Shown piece after piece: positions 3,822 to 58,263 of a stretch of 59,885 nucleotides of DNA. Origin of the DNA: Clostridia bacterium (GTDB lineage Bacteria > Bacillota > Clostridia > Christensenellales > RUG350); assembly GCA_017631635.1 (NCBI GenBank), contig JAGBSX010000028.1, positions 1 through 59,885 of the forward strand, given 5' to 3'. The notes below the pieces were generated by a model that saw only the letters and a program-made list of their open reading frames with translations, did not search any database and was not told where the DNA came from. Within the stretch, counting starts at the first letter, position 1. Every line of letters begins with the position of its first letter. The position numbers and the translations under genes were made by a program.

Positions 3822-5189
3822 ATGGAAATATTTGATTTGATAGTAATCGGCGGAGGTCCAGGTGGATATCTCTGCGCCGAGCGTGCCGCCCAAGGTGGTA
3901 TGAAAGTAGCCCTATTTGAGAAGAAATCTCTAGGTGGTACTTGCCTAAACGAAGGCTGTATCCCTACCAAGACTCTACTCAATTCTTCAAAGATGTATAG
4001 ACACGCCAAAGAGAGTGAGGCTTTTGGAGTCACCGTGACTGGCGTTAGTTATAATCACGAGAAGGTCGTAGAGAGAAAGAACGGAGTAGTCAAGACTCTA
4101 GTCGCAGGCGTAGGCGCTACTATGAAAGGTAATAAGGTCACCGTCATCAGCGCAAATGCAGTCATCAAAGGCAAGACGGACAATGGTTTTGCAGTAGAGG
4201 CTGACGGTGTAGTATACGAGGCCAAGAGACTCACTATCGCATCTGGCTCGGAGACCGTAGTCCCACCAGTACCTGGTCTCAAAGAGGGACTAGCATCTGG
4301 ATTCGTATTGACAAATAGAGAAGTACTAGACGAAAAGACTCTACCCAAGACCTTGGTCGTAATAGGTGGAGGAGTTATAGGTCTAGAGATGGCTTATTAC
4401 TTCGCTAGCGTAGGCGTCGAAGTGACAGTTATCGAGATGATGCCTAAGATAGCAGGTGCTACTGATCCTGATATCTGCAAGGTGCTCCAAGATGCATTTG
4501 TCAAGCGTGGTATGACCTTCAAACTCTCATGCAAAGTGCTAGAGGTCAAAGAGGGTAGCGTAGTATACGAAGAGAACGGCGAGAAGAAAGAGATAGCATG
4601 CGACAAGGTACTACTATCTGCAGGTCGTAAGCCTTCTACTGCTGGTATTGGCGTAGAAAATCTACAACTGAATATGGACAGGGCTGCTATCAAGACTGAT
4701 AGACATATGTGCACCAACGTATCTGGCGTATACGCAGTAGGCGATTGTAATGGCAAGTTGATGCTAGCACATACTGCATATAGAGAGGCAGAGGTAGCAG
4801 TTAATCATATGCTAGGCAAGGTGGACGAGATGCGTTATGACGTGATACCATCTGTCATCTACACCGACCCAGAGGTGGCTAGCGTAGGCTACAGCAAAGA
4901 AGGCGCAGAAAGTAAGGGTATGAAAGTCAAAGAAATCAAATTGCCTATGTCCTATGCAGGTCGCTACCTAGCAGAGAACGACGGTGGCAAAGGTTTCATC
5001 AAACTAGTAGTAGACACCGACAAAAATCGTCTAGTAGGATGCCATATGGTAGGCTCATACGCTTCTGAGATAATAATGACTGCTACTATGATGATAGACA
5101 CCGAACTCACACCTAATCGTCTAAAGAAACTCGTATTCCCACACCCTACTGTGGCAGAGATAATACGAGAGGCTATCTTTCATATTTAA
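3822..5189 (+). CDS. lpdA: Dihydrolipoyl dehydrogenase (E3)
   Basis: This 455-residue FAD flavoprotein reoxidises dihydrolipoamide on E2 with NAD+. It shows the FAD-binding GGGPGG (10-15), the redox-active disulfide C41/C46 in GGTCLNEGCIP, a central NAD-binding motif (VVIGGGVIGLEMAYY, about 180-194), the second FAD motif around AVGDCNG, and the C-terminal FPHPTVAEIIREA active-site segment, which supplies the His-Glu pair to the partner subunit. Length is normal. It starts 10 bp after the E2 stop and is followed 26 bp later by E1, so the complex is encoded as one transcript in the order E2-E3-E1. Confidence 0.95.
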   Translation: MEIFDLIVIGGGPGGYLCAERAAQGGMKVALFEKKSLGGTCLNEGCIPTKTLLNSSKMYRHAKESEAFGVTVTGVSYNHEKVVERKNGVVKTLVAGVGATMKGNKVTVISANAVIKGKTDNGFAVEADGVVYEAKRLTIASGSETVVPPVPGLKEGLASGFVLTNREVLDEKTLPKTLVVIGGGVIGLEMAYYFASVGVEVTVIEMMPKIAGATDPDICKVLQDAFVKRGMTFKLSCKVLEVKEGSVVYEENGEKKEIACDKVLLSAGRKPSTAGIGVENLQLNMDRAAIKTDRHMCTNVSGVYAVGDCNGKLMLAHTAYREAEVAVNHMLGKVDEMRYDVIPSVIYTDPEVASVGYSKEGAESKGMKVKEIKLPMSYAGRYLAENDGGKGFIKLVVDTDKNRLVGCHMVGSYASEIIMTATMMIDTELTPNRLKKLVFPHPTVAEIIREAIFHI

Positions 5190-5215
5190 TAAATTATATA
5201 AGGAGAATAAATAAA

Positions 5216-7681
5216 ATGCCAAAGAGTTTATTTGTAGACCCACAAGAGACTTTAGCTCCTGGTCAGATTACTTTTGACAGTATTCCAGTCAATCAATACA
5301 ACAAAACGATACAAGAAGAGAGAAGTCGTTATAGTGACGACGATCTAGTGCGTATCTATCGTGATATCGCTATACTCCGTGAGTTTGAGTCTATGCTCAA
5401 CCAAATCAAGACCCAAGGTGTATACAACGGTATAGAGACTACTTATCCTGGTCCTGCCCACCTATCCATAGGTCAAGAGGCAGCAGCAGTAGGTCAAGCA
5501 TACCTACTAGACCAAAATGACTTCTCATTTGGTTCTCACCGTAGCCACTCCGAGATACTAGCCAAGGCTCTATCTTGTATTCACAAACTTAGCGAACAAG
5601 AATTAATGACTATAATGGAGGGCTTCCTAGGTGGCTCGGCTCTACGTGCTACCGAGAAGATAGGACCTGTCAGCGACGTCAAAGAACTAGCCATTAGATT
5701 TATCCTATACGGTACGTTGTCCGAGATATTTGCTCGTGACACCGGATTCCACAAGGGTATGGGTGGCTCAATGCACGCATTCTTCCTACCATTTGGTATA
5801 TATCCAAACAACGCTATCGTTGGTGGCTCTGCTGCTATCGCTACCGGTGCTGCTCTATTTAAGAAAATCAACAATAAGCAAGGTATCGTAGTGTGCAACT
5901 CCGGTGACGGTTCTATGGCTCGTGGTCCTGTATGGGAGGCTATGAACTTCGCTGCTATGGATCAATTCAATACCCTATGGGAGTCTCATAAGGGTGGTAT
6001 GCCTATACTATACAACGTATTCAACAACTCATACGGTATGGGAGACCAGACTCGTGGTGAGACTATGGGATACGATATGCTAGCACGTATCGGCTCTGGT
6101 GTCAGCCCTACTCAATTCCACGCAGAACGTATCAACGGATTTAACCCTCTCGCAGTTATCGACGCTATGGAGAGAAAACTCAAGATACTTCGCAACGAGG
6201 GAGGCCCTGTACTTCTCGATACTCTTACTTATCGTTTCTCTGGTCACTCTACTTCGGACCAAAACGCATATCGTACCAAGGAAGAGATAGAGGCATGGCG
6301 TAATATAGACCCAATCATCACTTACCGTCAAGGTCTAGTTGATGCAGGTGTCGTAGCAGATAGCAAACTAGAGGAGATACTAGCAGATACTATCGAGCGT
6401 ATGACTACTATCTGCAAGGCTGCATCAAATCCAGAGATCAGTCCATACGTTGACTTCCGCAAAGATCCTCAAGTAGTAGAGCGTTTGATGTTCTCCAACC
6501 AAAAGGTTGACAAACTAGACGATCGTGAGCCAGAGGTAAATATGCCTCTAGCAGAAGTACCTGCTTACAAGAAACTCAAGGAGAAAGAGCGTAGCCCTAT
6601 CGTAAACGGCAAGCCTGTATCCAAGATGAAACTATTTAACCTACGTGACGCATTGTCAGAGGTTATCTACGACAGATTCTACGAAGATCCTACACTAGTA
6701 GCGTATGGTGAGGATTGTCGTGACTGGGGTGGCGCATTTGCAGTATACCGTGGTATGATGGATGCGTTCCCACACTCTAGACTATTTAACTCTCCTATCG
6801 CAGAGGCTGCTATCGTAGGTACTGCAGTAGGATACGCAGTATCTGGTGGCCGTGCTCTAGTCGAACTAATGTATGCTGACTTTATCGGTTGCGCAGGTGA
6901 CGAGATATTTAACCAAATGTCCAAGTGGCAAGCAATGAGCGCAGGTATACTCAAGATGCCTGTGGTACTACGTGTATCAGTAGGATCAAAGTACGGCGCT
7001 CAACATAGCCAAGACTGGACTGCTCTATGCGCTCATATCCCTGGACTCAAGGTATGTTTCCCTGCTACCCCTTGGGAGGCAAAAGGTCTAATGGAGTCTG
7101 CACTCAGAGGTACTGACCCAGTAGTATTCTTTGAGAGCCAGAGAATATACGACGTAGGTGAGCAATTCCACGAGGGTGGCGTACCTGCAGAGCGTTATGA
7201 GATAGAATTTGGCGATACCAACAAGGTAAGAGACGGTAAGGACGTCACCATACTCACTATCGGTGCTGCTCTATATCGTGCCGTTGACGCTGCTAAACAA
7301 CTATCCGAGAAGTACGGTGTAGAGGCTGATATCATCAACATACACTCTCTAGTACCATTGGATTACACCAAGATAATCGAATCCGTCAAGAAGACTGGCA
7401 GAGTAGTACTAGTATCTGATGCTTGCGCTAGAGGTTCATTTATGAGTGACGTAGCCAAGAATATCACCGAACTATGCTTTGATGATCTAGATGCACCTCC
7501 AGTAGTAGTAGGCGCTCGCAACTGGATAACTCCTCCATACGAGTTTGACGAGTTCTTCTTCCCACAAGCATCATGGATAATAGACGCTATCTCCGAGAAA
7601 CTCGTGCCACTACCAGGACACGTAGTAAAAGATGGTTGTACGGAGGCAGAGGCTATTCGCCGTGCTAAACAAGGCGTATAA
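5216..7681 (+). CDS. Fused E1 alpha-beta subunit of a thiamine-diphosphate 2-oxoacid dehydrogenase
   Basis: One 821-residue chain carries both halves of the alpha2beta2-type E1. The alpha half (about 1-440) has GSHRSHSE, GGSMHAF and the ThDP/Mg2+ motif GDGSMARGPVWEAMNFA with a downstream NNSYGMGD. The beta half (about 475-821) has VAYGEDC, the SPIAEAAIVGTAVGYAVSG segment and a C-terminal transketolase domain. It decarboxylates the 2-oxoacid and acylates the E2 lipoyl group. An extra stretch of about 40 residues lies between GSHRSHSE and GGSMH compared with ordinary E1 alpha, including an Ala/Gly-rich FLGGSAL. Codon choice is rich in CGT and ACC, which suggests high expression. Substrate (pyruvate or branched-chain) is undecided. 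Confidence 0.88.
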   Translation: MPKSLFVDPQETLAPGQITFDSIPVNQYNKTIQEERSRYSDDDLVRIYRDIAILREFESMLNQIKTQGVYNGIETTYPGPAHLSIGQEAAAVGQAYLLDQNDFSFGSHRSHSEILAKALSCIHKLSEQELMTIMEGFLGGSALRATEKIGPVSDVKELAIRFILYGTLSEIFARDTGFHKGMGGSMHAFFLPFGIYPNNAIVGGSAAIATGAALFKKINNKQGIVVCNSGDGSMARGPVWEAMNFAAMDQFNTLWESHKGGMPILYNVFNNSYGMGDQTRGETMGYDMLARIGSGVSPTQFHAERINGFNPLAVIDAMERKLKILRNEGGPVLLDTLTYRFSGHSTSDQNAYRTKEEIEAWRNIDPIITYRQGLVDAGVVADSKLEEILADTIERMTTICKAASNPEISPYVDFRKDPQVVERLMFSNQKVDKLDDREPEVNMPLAEVPAYKKLKEKERSPIVNGKPVSKMKLFNLRDALSEVIYDRFYEDPTLVAYGEDCRDWGGAFAVYRGMMDAFPHSRLFNSPIAEAAIVGTAVGYAVSGGRALVELMYADFIGCAGDEIFNQMSKWQAMSAGILKMPVVLRVSVGSKYGAQHSQDWTALCAHIPGLKVCFPATPWEAKGLMESALRGTDPVVFFESQRIYDVGEQFHEGGVPAERYEIEFGDTNKVRDGKDVTILTIGAALYRAVDAAKQLSEKYGVEADIINIHSLVPLDYTKIIESVKKTGRVVLVSDACARGSFMSDVAKNITELCFDDLDAPPVVVGARNWITPPYEFDEFFFPQASWIIDAISEKLVPLPGHVVKDGCTEAEAIRRAKQGV

Positions 7682-47071: not shown

Positions 47072-48859
47072 ATGATACAAGCAAATGATTTGAGAAAGAA
47101 ATATCTAGACTTTTTTAAGGCAAAGGGACATACTGTAATACAGTCTGCATCTTTGATACCAGACAACGATCCTACCGTACTATTTACTACTGCCGGTATG
47201 CATCCACTAGTACCTTATCTACTAGGTGCTAAGCACCCTGCAGGTACTCGTCTAACCGACGTGCAGAAGTGCGTGCGTACAGGCGATATCGACGAGGTAG
47301 GAGATGCATCACACTTGACTTTCTTTGAGATGCTAGGCAACTGGTCGCTAGGAGATTATTTCAAGAGAGAGGCTATTAGTTGGAGTTGGGAGTTCTTGAC
47401 CAAAGAACTAGGTATCTCTCCAGATAGGCTAGCAGTATCAGTATTTGAGGGAGATGAGAATGCTCCAAAGGATACTGAGAGCGCAGATATATGGGCAGAG
47501 TGTGGCATGGACAGGAGTCGCATATTCTTCTTGCCTAAGAAACACAACTGGTGGGGACCTGCAGGTCTCACAGGCCCTTGTGGTCCTGATACCGAGATGT
47601 TTATCGACAACGGTAAGCCTGCTTGTAGTCCAGAGTGTAGCCCTGCTTGTAATTGTGGCAAGTATCTCGAGATATGGAACGACGTATTTATGCAATACAA
47701 CAAGACTGAGGCAGGCACGTTTGAGCCACTAAGTCAGAAGAACGTAGATACAGGTATGGGACTAGAGAGAACTATATGTATTCTCCAAGGTAAATCCTCT
47801 GTATACGACACAGACGTATTTGCTCCTGCTATATCATTGATAGAGACTCTGAGTGGCAAGAAGTACGGTGAGAGTGACGACGTGACTAGGGCTATGAGAG
47901 TGGTGGCTGACCACACTCGTACTGCTACCTTCATAATGGGCGACGACCTAGGAGTCACTCCTTCAAACGTAGACCAAGGCTACGTGCTACGTAGACTTAT
48001 TCGCCGTGCCGTGAGATTTTCTCGCACACTAGAACTACCAGAAGGTTCGCTAGAGAAGATAGCCAAGGTGTATATCGACCAATACAAAGACGTCTACAAA
48101 GAACTAGAGAGAAATGCCGACAAGATACTCAAAGAGTTTAATCTAGAGGTCACTAGATTTGAAAAAACTCTAGCGCAAGGTATCAAAGAGTTTGACAAAG
48201 TAGCATTTTATCTAGAGAAGTCAGGCAACACCTCCATAAGTGGAAAGTTGGCGTTTAAGTTGTACGACACCTTTGGATTCCCTATAGAGATGACTGTCGA
48301 ACTCGCTAGCGAGAAGGGTATGAGCGTAGATATCGAAGGCTTCAACAAAGCATTTGAGGAACACCAACTCAAGTCCCAAGCAGGCGCAGAGAAGAAGTTT
48401 AAGTGTGGACTAGCAGACGATAGCGAGGAGACTGTCAAATTGCATACTGCTACACACCTATTGCACGCAGCCCTACGCAAGGTACTAGGTACGGAAGTAG
48501 CCCAAAAGGGTAGTAATATCACTCCAGAGAGACTACGTTTTGACTTTAGTTTTGAGAGGGCTATGACTGCTGACGAGATCAAACAAGTAGAGGATCTAGT
48601 CAATGAGTACATCAAGGCAGGCGTAGAGATTACTTGCGAAGAGATGAGTGTAGAGGACGCCAAGAGTGCCGGTGCTATAGGTCTATTTATGGACAAGTAC
48701 GGCGAGGTAGTCAAAGTGTACACTATGGGTGAGTATAGCAAAGAAATATGCGGAGGACCTCACGCATCAAATACAGCCGACCTAGTATCATTTAAGATAC
48801 TCAAGGAGCAATCCTCATCTTCGGGTGTGAGACGTATCAAGGCTGTCATAGGTCAATAA
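47072..48859 (+). CDS. alaS: Alanyl-tRNA synthetase, short form without the C-terminal domain
   Basis: The 595-residue enzyme has the class II AlaRS aminoacylation core (FTTAGMHPLVPYLLG, FEMLGNWSLGDYF, GPCGPDTEMFIDNG, NVDTGMGLERT), the tRNA-recognition helices (about 250-400) and the editing domain with H-x3-H (HTATH) and C-x3-H (CGGPHA). It stops about 250-280 residues short of the usual length of about 875. The DHHA1 oligomerisation and C-Ala region is missing. The stop is clean and the next gene starts 20 bp later, so it looks like a natural short form rather than a frameshift. A second, longer AlaRS elsewhere cannot be excluded. Confidence 0.9.
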   Translation: MIQANDLRKKYLDFFKAKGHTVIQSASLIPDNDPTVLFTTAGMHPLVPYLLGAKHPAGTRLTDVQKCVRTGDIDEVGDASHLTFFEMLGNWSLGDYFKREAISWSWEFLTKELGISPDRLAVSVFEGDENAPKDTESADIWAECGMDRSRIFFLPKKHNWWGPAGLTGPCGPDTEMFIDNGKPACSPECSPACNCGKYLEIWNDVFMQYNKTEAGTFEPLSQKNVDTGMGLERTICILQGKSSVYDTDVFAPAISLIETLSGKKYGESDDVTRAMRVVADHTRTATFIMGDDLGVTPSNVDQGYVLRRLIRRAVRFSRTLELPEGSLEKIAKVYIDQYKDVYKELERNADKILKEFNLEVTRFEKTLAQGIKEFDKVAFYLEKSGNTSISGKLAFKLYDTFGFPIEMTVELASEKGMSVDIEGFNKAFEEHQLKSQAGAEKKFKCGLADDSEETVKLHTATHLLHAALRKVLGTEVAQKGSNITPERLRFDFSFERAMTADEIKQVEDLVNEYIKAGVEITCEEMSVEDAKSAGAIGLFMDKYGEVVKVYTMGEYSKEICGGPHASNTADLVSFKILKEQSSSSGVRRIKAVIGQ

Positions 48860-53903: not shown

Positions 53904-53980
53904 CGCGGAGTAGAGCAGTTGGTAGCTTGCCGGGCTCATAACCCGGAGGTCGTGAGGTTCAAGTCCCACCTCCGCAACCA
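53904..53980 (+). tRNA. tRNA-fMet (CAT), initiator
   Basis: A 77-nt cloverleaf with anticodon CAT at 53937-53939. The C1-A72 mismatch (acceptor CGCGGAG/CTCCGCA) and three G-C pairs in the anticodon stem mark it as initiator. CCA is encoded. Confidence 0.95.
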
Positions 53981-53986
53981 ATAAAT

Positions 53987-54063
53987 GGCGGCGTAGCTTA
54001 GCTGGTTAGAGCGGCCGGTTCATACCCGGCAGGTCATAGATTCGAATTCTATCGCCGCCACCA
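53987..54063 (+). tRNA. tRNA-Met (CAT), elongator
   Basis: A 77-nt cloverleaf (GGCGGCGTAGCTTAGCTGGT) with anticodon CAT at 54021-54023. The GGTTCATACCCGG arm matches Bacillus-type elongator tRNA-Met rather than the lysidine-type tRNA-Ile(CAT). CCA is encoded. Confidence 0.9.
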
Positions 54064-54068
54064 GTTCC

Positions 54069-54100
54069 ATCAACAACGAGCCTCAGGGCTCGTTGTTGAT
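54069..54100. other. 14-bp perfect hairpin between tRNA genes
   Basis: ATCAACAACGAGCC/GGCTCGTTGTTGAT with a TCAG loop and no T run directly after. It may be a processing signal or transcription pause. Downstream CGGTCGA repeats at 54114 and 54124 are spaced 10 bp. Confidence 0.55.
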
Positions 54101-54138
54101 AAAAATTGACAGTCGGTCGAGAACGGTCGATTGTCCAC

Positions 54139-54213
54139 GGCCCCTTGGTCAAGCGGTCAAGACACCACCCTTTCACGGTAGTAACATGGGTTCGATTCCC
54201 GTAGGGGTCACCA
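54139..54213 (+). tRNA. tRNA-Glu (TTC)
   Basis: A 75-nt cloverleaf with anticodon TTC at 54172-54174 and CCA encoded. The anticodon stem has one C-A mismatch (54166 with 54180). Its last 14 bases are repeated at 54349-54362, the usual mark of an integration site. Confidence 0.9.
54200..54213 (+). repeat. Candidate attachment site: tRNA-Glu 3' end copy
   Basis: CGTAGGGGTCACCA at the tRNA end is repeated exactly at 54349-54362. Integrases often use the tRNA 3' end as attB. Confidence 0.55.
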
Positions 54214-54793: not shown

Positions 54794-56390
54794 AAAAACG
54801 ACAGAAGAAAAAATCAACTTAGAATCTATACTGTTTAAGTGTCGTGATATCTTGCGTAAGGCAAGAAATTCGGGCTCGTTCTTTGAAAAGCGCGATATGA
54901 TGTTGACACTCGTATTTTTGCGTTTTATTGGCGAAAAATTCGAAGACGGCACAGTCAAACTCCGTCAAACCCTTATTGAACAAGGTCTTGACCCTGATGA
55001 TGAAGAAATATTTAAGGCATTCTTTGACGATGCCACCTTTACAGATGGCACGTATAATTTGCCCGTAGAAGCGCGTTGGTCTACCATTATCAATACACCT
55101 GCGCCCAAACTCAACGTCGCACTTGATACCGCACTTCATAGCATTGCCGCAAGCAGTACGCAACTTAAAGGCTGTTTCGTAGAAGGCACGTTCACTACGC
55201 GTAATCTGGCTCCCAACGACATCAAACAAGTCGTGGACGAAATAAATAAAATTAGCCATAAAGCCTTTGGCGAAGAAAAAGACTTAATCGGTCGTGTATA
55301 CGAATACTTCTTAAAAGAATTTGCTGTAAATGCTACCAAGGAAGAAGGCGAATTTTACACTCCCCACGACGCAGTTCAGCTTATCGCTACTATGATAGAG
55401 CCTTTTGACGGCACGTTATATGACCCCTGCTGTGGTTCAGGCGGTATGTTTGTTCAAAGCACCGACCTGGTTAGAGAAAAACACGGAGATATTAGCCGTA
55501 TCAACGTTTACGGCCAAGAAAAAGAAGCCGCTACCTATCGTTTGGCAAAAATGAACCTTGCTCTTCGCGGTATCAGCCATAACCTTGGCGAAGCCAGCGA
55601 TTCTTCTTTTACGCACGACTTGCATAAGGGTATTTACTTTGACTATATTATGGCGAATCCACCTTTCAACTTGAAGGGTTGGTACGACGATAACCTGAAA
55701 AACGATTCCCGTTGGGCGGATTATACCACGCCCCCCGATAGTAACGCTAACTATGCGTGGATTTTGCATATGCTCTCCCACTTAAAGCCCTTGAAAGGCG
55801 TAGCAGGTTTCTTGCTTGCAAACGGTGCTTTGGGTGATAGCGATACGCTTGCAATCCGTCAAAAACTCATTGAAAACGACAAGGTGGAAGCGATTATCAT
55901 TCTTCCCCGAGAACTGTTTATTACGACGGATATAAGCGTAACCCTTTGGATTTTGAACCAAAACAAGAAAGGCAGCGAATACCACGGCATAACCTTGCTC
56001 AACCGTGAACACGAAATCCTGTTTATGGACTTGCGTCAATGGACGGAAAACCACGTTTCGGGCGAACAAAAGAAAAAAGTACGCTTGGACGATACGCAGA
56101 TTGCACGCGCCGCAGAAATCTACCACACTTGGCAAAGCGAAGGCACGGACGGAACGAATTATGCCGTACCCGAACTCTATCGTAGCGTTGGGATAGCTGA
56201 AATCGAAAGAAACGGTTGGACGCTTGTACCCAGCAAGTATATCGAGTTTATCGACCACGATTTGGATATCAACTTCCCTGCGGAAATGGCGCGTATTCAA
56301 GGCGAAATGAAAGAAATTCTCGCGCAAGAAAAGGAATCGCAAAAGATGTTGGGAAATGCTTTCAAGGGGATTGGCTATGGCATTGACTAA
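54786..56390 (+). CDS. hsdM: Type I restriction-modification methyltransferase subunit HsdM
   Basis: The 534-residue protein has the N-terminal HsdM helical domain (LESILFKCRDILRKARNSG, FLRFIGEKFED) and the N6-adenine methylase core with SAM motif D213-PCCGSGG and the catalytic N291-P-P-F. The C-terminal end overlaps hsdS. It methylates adenines at the site chosen by HsdS. Codons such as CTT, GAA and CGT differ from the host's CTA/GAG/AGA usage, a sign of transfer. The start overlaps the RHH gene. Confidence 0.95.
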   Translation: MPKKTTEEKINLESILFKCRDILRKARNSGSFFEKRDMMLTLVFLRFIGEKFEDGTVKLRQTLIEQGLDPDDEEIFKAFFDDATFTDGTYNLPVEARWSTIINTPAPKLNVALDTALHSIAASSTQLKGCFVEGTFTTRNLAPNDIKQVVDEINKISHKAFGEEKDLIGRVYEYFLKEFAVNATKEEGEFYTPHDAVQLIATMIEPFDGTLYDPCCGSGGMFVQSTDLVREKHGDISRINVYGQEKEAATYRLAKMNLALRGISHNLGEASDSSFTHDLHKGIYFDYIMANPPFNLKGWYDDNLKNDSRWADYTTPPDSNANYAWILHMLSHLKPLKGVAGFLLANGALGDSDTLAIRQKLIENDKVEAIIILPRELFITTDISVTLWILNQNKKGSEYHGITLLNREHEILFMDLRQWTENHVSGEQKKKVRLDDTQIARAAEIYHTWQSEGTDGTNYAVPELYRSVGIAEIERNGWTLVPSKYIEFIDHDLDINFPAEMARIQGEMKEILAQEKESQKMLGNAFKGIGYGID

Positions 56391-57498
56391 ATATAAATTG
56401 GGCGATTTGATAGAGCCGCGCGATGTGAGAAACTTTGACAATTTACTCACACTTGACAACCTTAAAGGCATTTCAACAAACAAAGAATTTATAGAAACAA
56501 AAGCCGATATGGACGGGGTAAATCTATCGTCGTATAAGGTTGTGAATGAAGGTGAATTTGCTTATGTTGCCGATACTTCAAGGCGAGGTGAAAAAATAGC
56601 TCTTGCGTTCAATAAAAGCAGTCAGGCGTATTTGATATCATCTATTTATACGGTTTTTCGAGTATCAAGAAAAGAATTGATACTTCCCGATTACTTGTTT
56701 ATGTATTTTAACCGCCCGGAGTTTGACCGTTATGCGCGGTTCAACTCTTGGGGTTCGGCAAGAGAAACTTTTTCGTGGGAAGATATGTGCGATATTGATA
56801 TCGAACTTCCTGACTTACCTACGCAACAAAAATATGTTGATATATATAACGCAATGGTGACAAATCAACAAATTTATGAGCGTGGCTTGGAAGACTTAAA
56901 ACTTGTCTGCGACGGCTACATTGATAAAATTAAACATACTTCGCCATATAAGCCCATTCGCATGTTATTGAAAGAAGTAGATATTCGCAACACTAATGGA
57001 GAAATAACGTTTGTACACGGAATTAATATCACCAAACAATTTATGCCTTCTGTTGCTGATACAGATAATGTTGATTTAACAAAATATAAAAAAGTGAAGA
57101 AAAATCAGTTTGCATTCTCGGGAATGCAGACAGGAAGAGATGAATGTATTCGGATTGCGCTAAATAGAAGCAATGAAGATATTATAGTTTCTCCCGCATA
57201 TACAGTTTTTGAAGTTCTGGATACAACTATACTAGAAGAATACATCATGCTGTGGTTTTCACGAAAACAAAGCGATAGGCGTGGGTGGTTTATGAGCGAT
57301 TCAAGCATTCGTTCTAATCTTGACTTAGATAGACTTTATGAAACACAAATACCTATCCCTGCTCCCCAAATACAGCAGGCGATTGTTAATATTTACAAAG
57401 TATACATTGAGCGTAAAGAAATCAACGAAAAACTAAAAGCACAAATTAAAGACATTTGCCCTATACTCATCAAGGGTTCATTAGAAGAAGGAAAATAA
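56377..57498 (+). CDS. hsdS: Type I restriction specificity subunit HsdS
   Basis: The 373-residue protein has two target-recognition domains (about 1-160 and 195-345), each ending in a conserved coiled helix (DLPTQQKYVDIYNAMVTNQQ; APQIQQAIVNIYKVYIERKE). It determines the bipartite DNA sequence recognised by HsdMR. The ATG at 56377 lies inside hsdM, whose stop is 14 bases later; a longer start at 56356 adds seven residues. The target sequence is unknown, and recombination in these domains is common. Confidence 0.9.
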   Translation: MALTKYKLGDLIEPRDVRNFDNLLTLDNLKGISTNKEFIETKADMDGVNLSSYKVVNEGEFAYVADTSRRGEKIALAFNKSSQAYLISSIYTVFRVSRKELILPDYLFMYFNRPEFDRYARFNSWGSARETFSWEDMCDIDIELPDLPTQQKYVDIYNAMVTNQQIYERGLEDLKLVCDGYIDKIKHTSPYKPIRMLLKEVDIRNTNGEITFVHGINITKQFMPSVADTDNVDLTKYKKVKKNQFAFSGMQTGRDECIRIALNRSNEDIIVSPAYTVFEVLDTTILEEYIMLWFSRKQSDRRGWFMSDSSIRSNLDLDRLYETQIPIPAPQIQQAIVNIYKVYIERKEINEKLKAQIKDICPILIKGSLEEGK

Positions 57499-57501
57499 AA
57501 T

Positions 57502-58242
57502 ATGACAAACTTACTAAAGCGAATAGATGAAATAGTAAAAGCGCTTGAGAATAATTATTACCCCGAAATTACCTACAAGAAAAACTTGTTTGAGATAAGG
57601 CAAATTATTCTTTCTACGGTTGGACGGGTAAGCGATTCTTTCGCTGCATATGAGGAAATTGCGAAAGCAAAAATTGATTATTGTACAGCGAATGAATATT
57701 TAATAGGTGTTTTGAAGGGACTCAAAGCTCATTTACAATTACAAATGAATACAAATAAACGCTACCAAGTATTCATTAGTTCAACATATTTAGACTTAAT
57801 CGATTATCGAAAAGCGGTATCGGATGAAATTACCTTTCGAGGACATATTCCAGCTGGTATGGAAGACTTTACGGCGTGTGGTGAAGATTTAGAAACGTAT
57901 ATTAAACATGTAATAGACGAATCGGATTATTACGTACTTATTATTGGACAGCGTTTTGGTTCTTCTATCCCTACGGATGAAAATGTTAGCTATACCATGA
58001 TGGAATATGAATACGCAAAGTCGAAAGGAATGAGAATTATTCCGTTGATATATAGCGGAAAACAAGATTTAGAAGGAAACGACTTAGACGTCAATAAAGA
58101 TAAATTTGACAAATTTGTTTCAAAAATTAAGACAAAAACACCACAGTATTTCAAAGACGAAAACGAGTTGATTAGAAATCTAACCAAAGCACTCGAATTA
58201 GAAATTAAAAATCATCCCCAAAAAGGTTGGATAAGATTGTAA
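57502..58242 (+). CDS. DUF4062-domain protein embedded in the restriction operon
   Basis: The 246-residue protein has an N-terminal helical region (1-86) and a DUF4062 domain (about 87-184; YQVFISSTYLDLIDYRKAVS, SDYYVLIIGQRFGSS, SYTMMEYEYAKSKGMRIIPL). DUF4062 is a TIR-like fold found at the N terminus of STAND and other defence proteins. A charged C-terminal tail (about 200-246) follows, with no second domain. It starts 3 bp after hsdS and precedes hsdR, so it is translated with the system. A nucleotide-cleaving or sensor role is inference. Confidence 0.8.
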   Translation: MTNLLKRIDEIVKALENNYYPEITYKKNLFEIRQIILSTVGRVSDSFAAYEEIAKAKIDYCTANEYLIGVLKGLKAHLQLQMNTNKRYQVFISSTYLDLIDYRKAVSDEITFRGHIPAGMEDFTACGEDLETYIKHVIDESDYYVLIIGQRFGSSIPTDENVSYTMMEYEYAKSKGMRIIPLIYSGKQDLEGNDLDVNKDKFDKFVSKIKTKTPQYFKDENELIRNLTKALELEIKNHPQKGWIRL

Positions 58243-58263
58243 ATCCCACTACGGAGAAAGACT

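Follow-up and report, generated by a model that had tools for sequence, protein, structure and literature searches.

DUF4062 proteins are a family of TIR-like NADases that function in phage defense (May 2026 preprint, PMC13174449). The Klebsiella member KpSwz (Swarozyc) is autoinhibited and possesses a C-terminal auxiliary domain that binds the phage portal; the enzyme hydrolyzes NAD+ and aborts infection, and E97 is essential (PMC13174449). From NAD(P)+, the DUF4062 proteins tested so far produce nicotinamide and ADP-ribose (phosphate) and no derivatives beyond these, and the same preprint raises the possibility of DUF4062 activities more complex than NAD+ hydrolysis (PMC13174449).

Defense genes embedded in type I restriction operons are already known. 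DarTG2, a two-gene toxin-antitoxin system, lies between hsdS and hsdR at a site described as a potential recombination hotspot for defense systems (PMC12255303). TgvAB, a type IV restriction enzyme pair, is embedded in the type I operon of V. cholerae VPI-2 and works without HsdR (PMC11411939). A type IC locus contains the gene for PrrC, an ABC-ATPase/anticodon nuclease that the Hsd complex holds silent and that becomes active upon inhibition of EcoprrI (PMC12707154, PMC3506569). In general terms, repeated toxin displacement in restriction-modification (R-M) loci has also been proposed (PMC3506569).

The DUF4062 gene described here shares features with each of these systems. Similar to DarTG2, it lies between hsdS and hsdR (PMC12255303); similar to TgvAB, it places a second defense system inside a type I operon; and similar to PrrC, it is a single suicide-type gene in such an operon. 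In contrast to DarTG2 it consists of one TIR-like gene, in contrast to TgvAB it encodes a predicted NADase, and in contrast to PrrC its product is a TIR-like protein, in which ABC-ATPase and anticodon-nuclease domains of the PrrC type were not found (only DUF4062/TIR-type Pfam matches rise above noise). The literature searched contained no description of a TIR gene, DUF4062 or otherwise, within an hsdS-hsdR gap; as coverage was incomplete, this is weak evidence of absence. On the best reading, what is new is a predicted TIR-like NADase with a new N-terminal domain that is swappable cargo in the hsdS-hsdR slot.

The hsd operon and the TIR-like domain

The window (the whole stretch of DNA analyzed, 59,885 nucleotides) constitutes the entire contig G000:C28, the end of which truncates hsdR. 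The rest of hsdR is found at the end of contig G000:C54, in the same reading frame and with a near-identical near-overlap of ~60 bp, and consequently the type I operon is complete. HsdM, HsdS, and HsdR are ordinary type I subunits based on their domains (N6_Mtase and HsdM_N; Methylase_S; HSDR_N and SWI2/SNF2) and are encoded together in one operon. The most likely start of hsdS is that given in Table 1, which is preferred over the longest-ORF start at 56356. The source genome contains one DUF4062 gene and one HSDR_N gene. As a separate observation on the window, the alanyl-tRNA synthetase-like ORF at 47072-48859 has only 595 aa, and from the sequence alone its usual C-terminal region seems to be missing.

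Table 1. Positions of the features discussed, in window coordinates unless a locus is named
Feature	Position	Strand	Basis or remark
tRNA-Met, tRNA-Met, tRNA-Glu cluster just upstream of the hsd operon	53904..54213	+	ARAGORN
hsdM, type I methyltransferase subunit, 534 aa	54786..56390	+	Pfam N6_Mtase E=4.5e-85, HsdM_N E=2.7e-11
hsdS, specificity subunit, two target-recognition halves	56377..57498	+	Methylase_S E=6.7e-14, PADLOC Specificity_I E=1.9e-114
hsdS-hsdR cargo slot	57499..58263	.	blastn of window vs L178, end alignments
DUF4062 gene	57502..58242	+	246 aa, helical N-terminal domain + TIR-like domain
N-terminal four-helix domain, aa 1-85, putative sensor or adaptor	57502..57756	+	AF2 models
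TIR-like (DUF4062) domain, aa 86-246, ends at GWIRL	57757..58239	+	KpSwz 10wc_A alignment, Foldseek
E168 codon, predicted catalytic glutamate	58003..58005	+	invariant in aligned DUF4062 domains; KpSwz alignment
hsdR 5' part, 540 aa	58264..59883	+	HSDR_N E=5.6e-33, SWI2_SNF2 E=2.7e-49
CAP12-type TIR + AbiJ_NTD3-kinase pair	L178 (G084:C61), reverse complement, 3883-5982		between hsdS and hsdR

The DUF4062 ORF is exact, with an ATG start, and lies on the same strand as hsdS and hsdR with operon spacing on both sides. The TAA of hsdS ends 3 bp before it, and 21 bp separate it from the ATG of hsdR; this placement, proposed in the initial annotation, is confirmed by the ORF coordinates and Pfam. Shine-Dalgarno-like GAAGAAGGA and GGAG lie upstream of the DUF4062 gene and hsdR starts, and the DUF4062 gene is probably co-transcribed with the restriction enzyme genes.

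The Pfam DUF4062 model (PF13271) matches aa 89-172 of the protein (E=3.6e-23, 82 bits vs a cut-off of 24.7), and a weak TIR_2 match is also present, whereas the CAP12/Pycsar TIR family PF10137 has no Pfam match in either the protein or the source genome. A chance match to the DUF4062 profile is ruled out by the E-value and by the fold. The Pfam model spans only part of that fold, and aa 173-246, initially described as a short tail, complete it: KpSwz (PDB 10wc_A) aligns end to end with the TIR-like domain over aa 84-245 of the protein (E=4.8e-25), covering the whole TIR part with the catalytic Glu kept. The AlphaFold2 (AF2) model (mean pLDDT 87.9) retrieves the TIR domains of RPS4, SARM1, PdTIR, AbTir, and SPARTA in Foldseek (best E=9.3e-05, probability 1.00).

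The active-site positions of TIR-like enzymes, the absence of which would, according to the initial annotation, have made the linkage accidental, are all retained. Glu occupies the E168 position in 76/76 aligned DUF4062 domains, the conserved core includes R103 (76/76) and R151 (71/76), and S93/S94, P117, M120/E121, D142, and G153 are further core positions kept in the protein. The residue opposite E168 in the solved KpSwz chain is Ala, as expected for an E97A construct, the numbering match being taken from the chain label '15-C, E97A' (PMC13174449). The sequence and the modeled fold thus support the initial proposal of a TIR-like effector of the defense type with an intact active site, and by analogy with the characterized DUF4062 proteins the protein would be expected to have NADase activity.

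The N-terminal domain and relatives of the protein

The helical N-terminus noted initially is borne out by the AF2 model, in which four helices (residues 2-16, 22-40, 45-55, and 60-84) are predicted with a pLDDT of about 87. This domain has no convincing family in Pfam, plasmids, viral contigs, or the PDB and BFVD folds. The architecture of the protein departs from that of other DUF4062 proteins. DUF4062 had been described as usually forming the N-terminus of large STAND proteins, but in the sampled loci it mostly makes up the N-terminal half of proteins of 270-475 aa with a C-terminal auxiliary domain, and Pfam finds no NTPase domain in the 246 aa of the window protein. In a set of ~80 DUF4062 loci taken from genomes and viral contigs, DUF4062 occupies the N-terminal end of the protein or a position close to it, and the other intact loci encode 101-417 more residues after it, compared with 0 aa in the window protein, which ends at GWIRL. 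The KpSwz chain goes on from this point into a C-terminal helical stalk and the auxiliary portal-binding domain, which Swarozyc needs for defense, while the window protein instead has the N-terminal four-helix domain and an hsd-operon location. Only the window protein and one relative, L011, combine an 85-aa N-terminal domain with nothing past the TIR fold. Two further DUF4062 genes, one in G1171 and one in G1265, have short C-tails. In L026, L084, and L085, what looked like frameshifts or upstream extensions proved to be ordinary DUF4062 ORFs with C-terminal domains, the upstream match being due to chance.

L011, from the sheep colon Clostridia MAG RGIG5464, is the single full-length relative among 84,980 species genomes scanned, and no further full-length member was found in ~1,200 genomes drawn from the order, class, and phylum and from the relatives of L011. 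The two proteins have the same length and architecture and are 64% identical over their full length (36% in the N-terminal domain), with the active-site positions all kept in both. Unlike the window gene, L011 is a gene of its own next to lysS, which it follows, and it adjoins, beyond a divergent HTH gene, a BcgI-like RM/S pair instead of HsdMSR. No match to HSDR_N was found in the L011 genome. Most contig neighborhoods were annotated by tblastn with the Hsd proteins of the window and the L011 R-M pair, an approach that may miss distant R-M genes.

The initial annotation regarded the gene as fixed inside the type I operon, a view contradicted both by L011 and by the sister operon described below, in which a different gene fills the slot; an hsdS-DUF4062-hsdR order conserved with the window subfamily is rejected on the same grounds. 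What does recur is the presence of other DUF4062 genes in the slot (L189) or before hsdR (G1171), so this part of the expected linkage stands.

A domain observed elsewhere deserves mention. L135 (Shewanella plasmid CP078039.1, 790-1554) and L120 (Moraxella plasmid, 489-1256) possess a similar N-terminal domain (42% identity), which is found on a DpnII-MboI nuclease in one and on a CAP12-TIR domain in the other. This domain is a module common to different effectors; it was not found in viral contigs and phages.

Contents of the hsdS-hsdR slot

A search with HsdR identified a sister operon in G084, a genome of another family in the same order. HsdR is 96% identical between the two operons, HsdM 91%, and HsdS 72%, with the C-terminal half of hsdS 92.6% identical in DNA. 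In a blastn comparison of the window with this locus (L178), the matching DNA ends at 57489, nine bases short of the hsdS end, and the match picks up again at 58251, where the ribosome-binding site of hsdR lies. The DUF4062 gene is absent from the G084 slot and has no match elsewhere in that genome. Its place is occupied by a gene for a 263-aa CAP12/Pycsar-type TIR protein (PF10137 E=2.4e-36) with an N-terminal extension of ~120 aa, followed by an AbiJ_NTD3-protein kinase gene. The two TIR proteins share their slot, their size class, and the combination of an N-terminal extension with a TIR-superfamily domain, but they belong to different TIR families, and the kinase gene is found only next to the CAP12-type protein. 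One TIR-superfamily effector has been exchanged for another at exactly the same site and, because a near-identical operon carries a different suicide-type gene in the same spot, this spot behaves as a swappable slot for back-up defenses.

Other type I operons hold a range of contents at this position. The G551 slot encodes a membrane protein and a 254-aa protein whose TIR_2 domain is canonical (E=4.4e-22), and thus three TIR classes occur in the slot: DUF4062 (window), CAP12-type (G084), and TIR_2 (G551). AbiJ_NTD4/Abi_C occupies the slot in G561, AIPR in G527 and a Fic/HTH protein in G014 are encoded directly before hsdR, and the slot is empty in G500, G508, G063, and G074. In the Clostridia genome G1171 (locus L146), hsdR comes right after a gene for a membrane-like protein and a short DUF4062 gene, and the contig ends before the genes farther upstream. 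On the Bacteroidota plasmid L189 (Chryseobacterium), the order is hsdS, DUF4062/STAND-like (874 aa), a small ORF, a nucleotidyltransferase, an S-4TM effector, DUF4145, and hsdR. In five other plasmids the hsdS-hsdR gap is empty or contains one unrelated gene, and in Acidovorax it encodes an ATP-binding protein. Among six plasmid genes picked from the results of the DUF4062 search, none directly adjoins an hsd gene. In G010, G186, and G295, type I operons have DUF4062 genes with the ordinary architecture a few kb away.

Several side observations concern the same region. The gap contents of L189 (NZ_CP041688.1, 546-6001) possibly form a nested second defense system. In L098 (G010:C9, 9177-19863), TIR-superfamily genes of three kinds (CAP12-TIR, DUF4062, and SEFIR) stand side by side immediately upstream of a type I operon with the order hsdM-hsdS-354 aa-hsdR. 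In several type I operons (L181, L184, L187, L146), small proteins that look membrane-anchored and belong to no known family are encoded immediately before hsdR or before the gene preceding it.

Function of the embedded gene

The reading we consider most probable, with modest confidence, is that the protein is an autonomous TIR-like NADase effector of abortive infection carried as swappable cargo between hsdS and hsdR. It brings together the operon position, the intact residues, the unusual architecture, and the exact swap in the sister operon with the predicted TIR fold. The N-terminal four-helix domain would replace the C-terminal stalk and auxiliary sensor of the Swarozyc-type DUF4062 proteins and probably keeps the TIR-like enzyme silent until a phage-borne trigger is sensed. 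Upon triggering, this domain would assemble the TIR domains, leading to NAD+ hydrolysis and arrest of the infected cell. The effector would back up restriction as a second line of defense, most likely responding to a trigger of its own and not monitoring the Hsd complex. Autonomy is favored because KpSwz senses phage directly, because L011 resides in a genome without HSDR_N, and because nearly the same HsdR tolerates different cargo.

A possible, though on balance unlikely, alternative, which corresponds to the idea raised in the initial annotation, is that the protein guards the restriction enzyme in a PrrC-like manner. The helical N-terminus would dock on HsdMS(R) and so silence the NADase; its release, by anti-restriction proteins or when restriction stalls, would kill the cell. 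Activation of PrrC when EcoprrI is inhibited provides the precedent (PMC12707154, PMC3506569), the DUF4062 gene has no partner gene beside it except hsdM/S/R, and the presence of three TIR classes in the same slot looks as if the slot selects such effectors. An R-M-linked role would likewise be compatible with the two known full-length members, as both adjoin an R-M system that has an S subunit. On the other hand, the nearest homologue belongs to a genome that lacks an HSDR_N match, the KpSwz trigger is a phage portal and not an R-M system, the embedded TgvAB is independent of HsdR, and in many operons the slot is empty or filled with unrelated cargo.

Comparison of the N-termini bears on both sides of this question. 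Compared alone, the N-termini of the window and L178 proteins are not significantly similar (6/100 shuffles), whereas inclusion of homologues yields a weak profile similarity (0/100 shuffles) that could mean that the two interchanged proteins dock on one and the same Hsd component. Comparisons of the window N-terminus with those of L178, L120, and L135 give hhalign P values of 2.7e-4 to 6e-3 (0 of 80-150 shuffles), a likeness that is suggestive only, as the reference sequences were partly chosen by eye and the similarity is partly post hoc. There is no direct similarity to the N-terminus of the L098 CAP12-TIR protein, and the similarity to that of the L184 TIR protein is not significant.

A broader proposal, which we regard as clearly unlikely, treats the gap between hsdS and hsdR as a docking site dedicated to TIR-superfamily NADases. 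Unrelated families (DUF4062, CAP12-type, canonical TIR) would be recruited there, each joined to a shared small helical adaptor through which it binds the Hsd enzyme, and type I restriction enzymes would then act as trigger or lock for a suicide switch that depletes NAD+. It is more doubtful still that the gene is an inert or merely structural passenger that arrived by recombination with an AT-rich hsdS segment. The DUF4062 gene (GC 0.33) and hsdS (0.36) are indeed both AT-rich relative to hsdM (0.445) and the window part of hsdR (0.425), and hsdS genes often recombine, but the retention of every active-site position by two proteins that are 64% identical, the close spacing with ribosome-binding sites, and the repeated recruitment of TIR-type genes to the slot all argue against a passenger. 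Least probable, and by our estimate very improbable, is that the TIR-like domain works as in Thoeris and makes a messenger of the ADP-ribose type, with the responding effector encoded elsewhere; some TIR domains do so and the Swarozyc preprint leaves room for further DUF4062 activities, but the operon has no second effector gene besides hsdMSR and the tested DUF4062 proteins gave no products other than nicotinamide and ADP-ribose (phosphate) (PMC13174449).

The autonomous, swappable effector remains our preferred reading. While the characterized bacterial members of the family carry a C-terminal phage sensor, this protein represents a second DUF4062 layout, in which a helical domain is placed at the N-terminus, the C-terminal sensor is missing, and the gene belongs to a restriction operon. 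The sister operons amount to a natural experiment, wherein HsdR proteins that are 96% identical are paired with two different TIR-type genes in the same gap. A gut bacterium thus carries a gene for a predicted NAD+-destroying suicide enzyme inside a classical restriction operon, and the two operons make an old question testable, namely whether the suicide genes found in restriction operons are hitch-hikers or are wired to the restriction enzyme.
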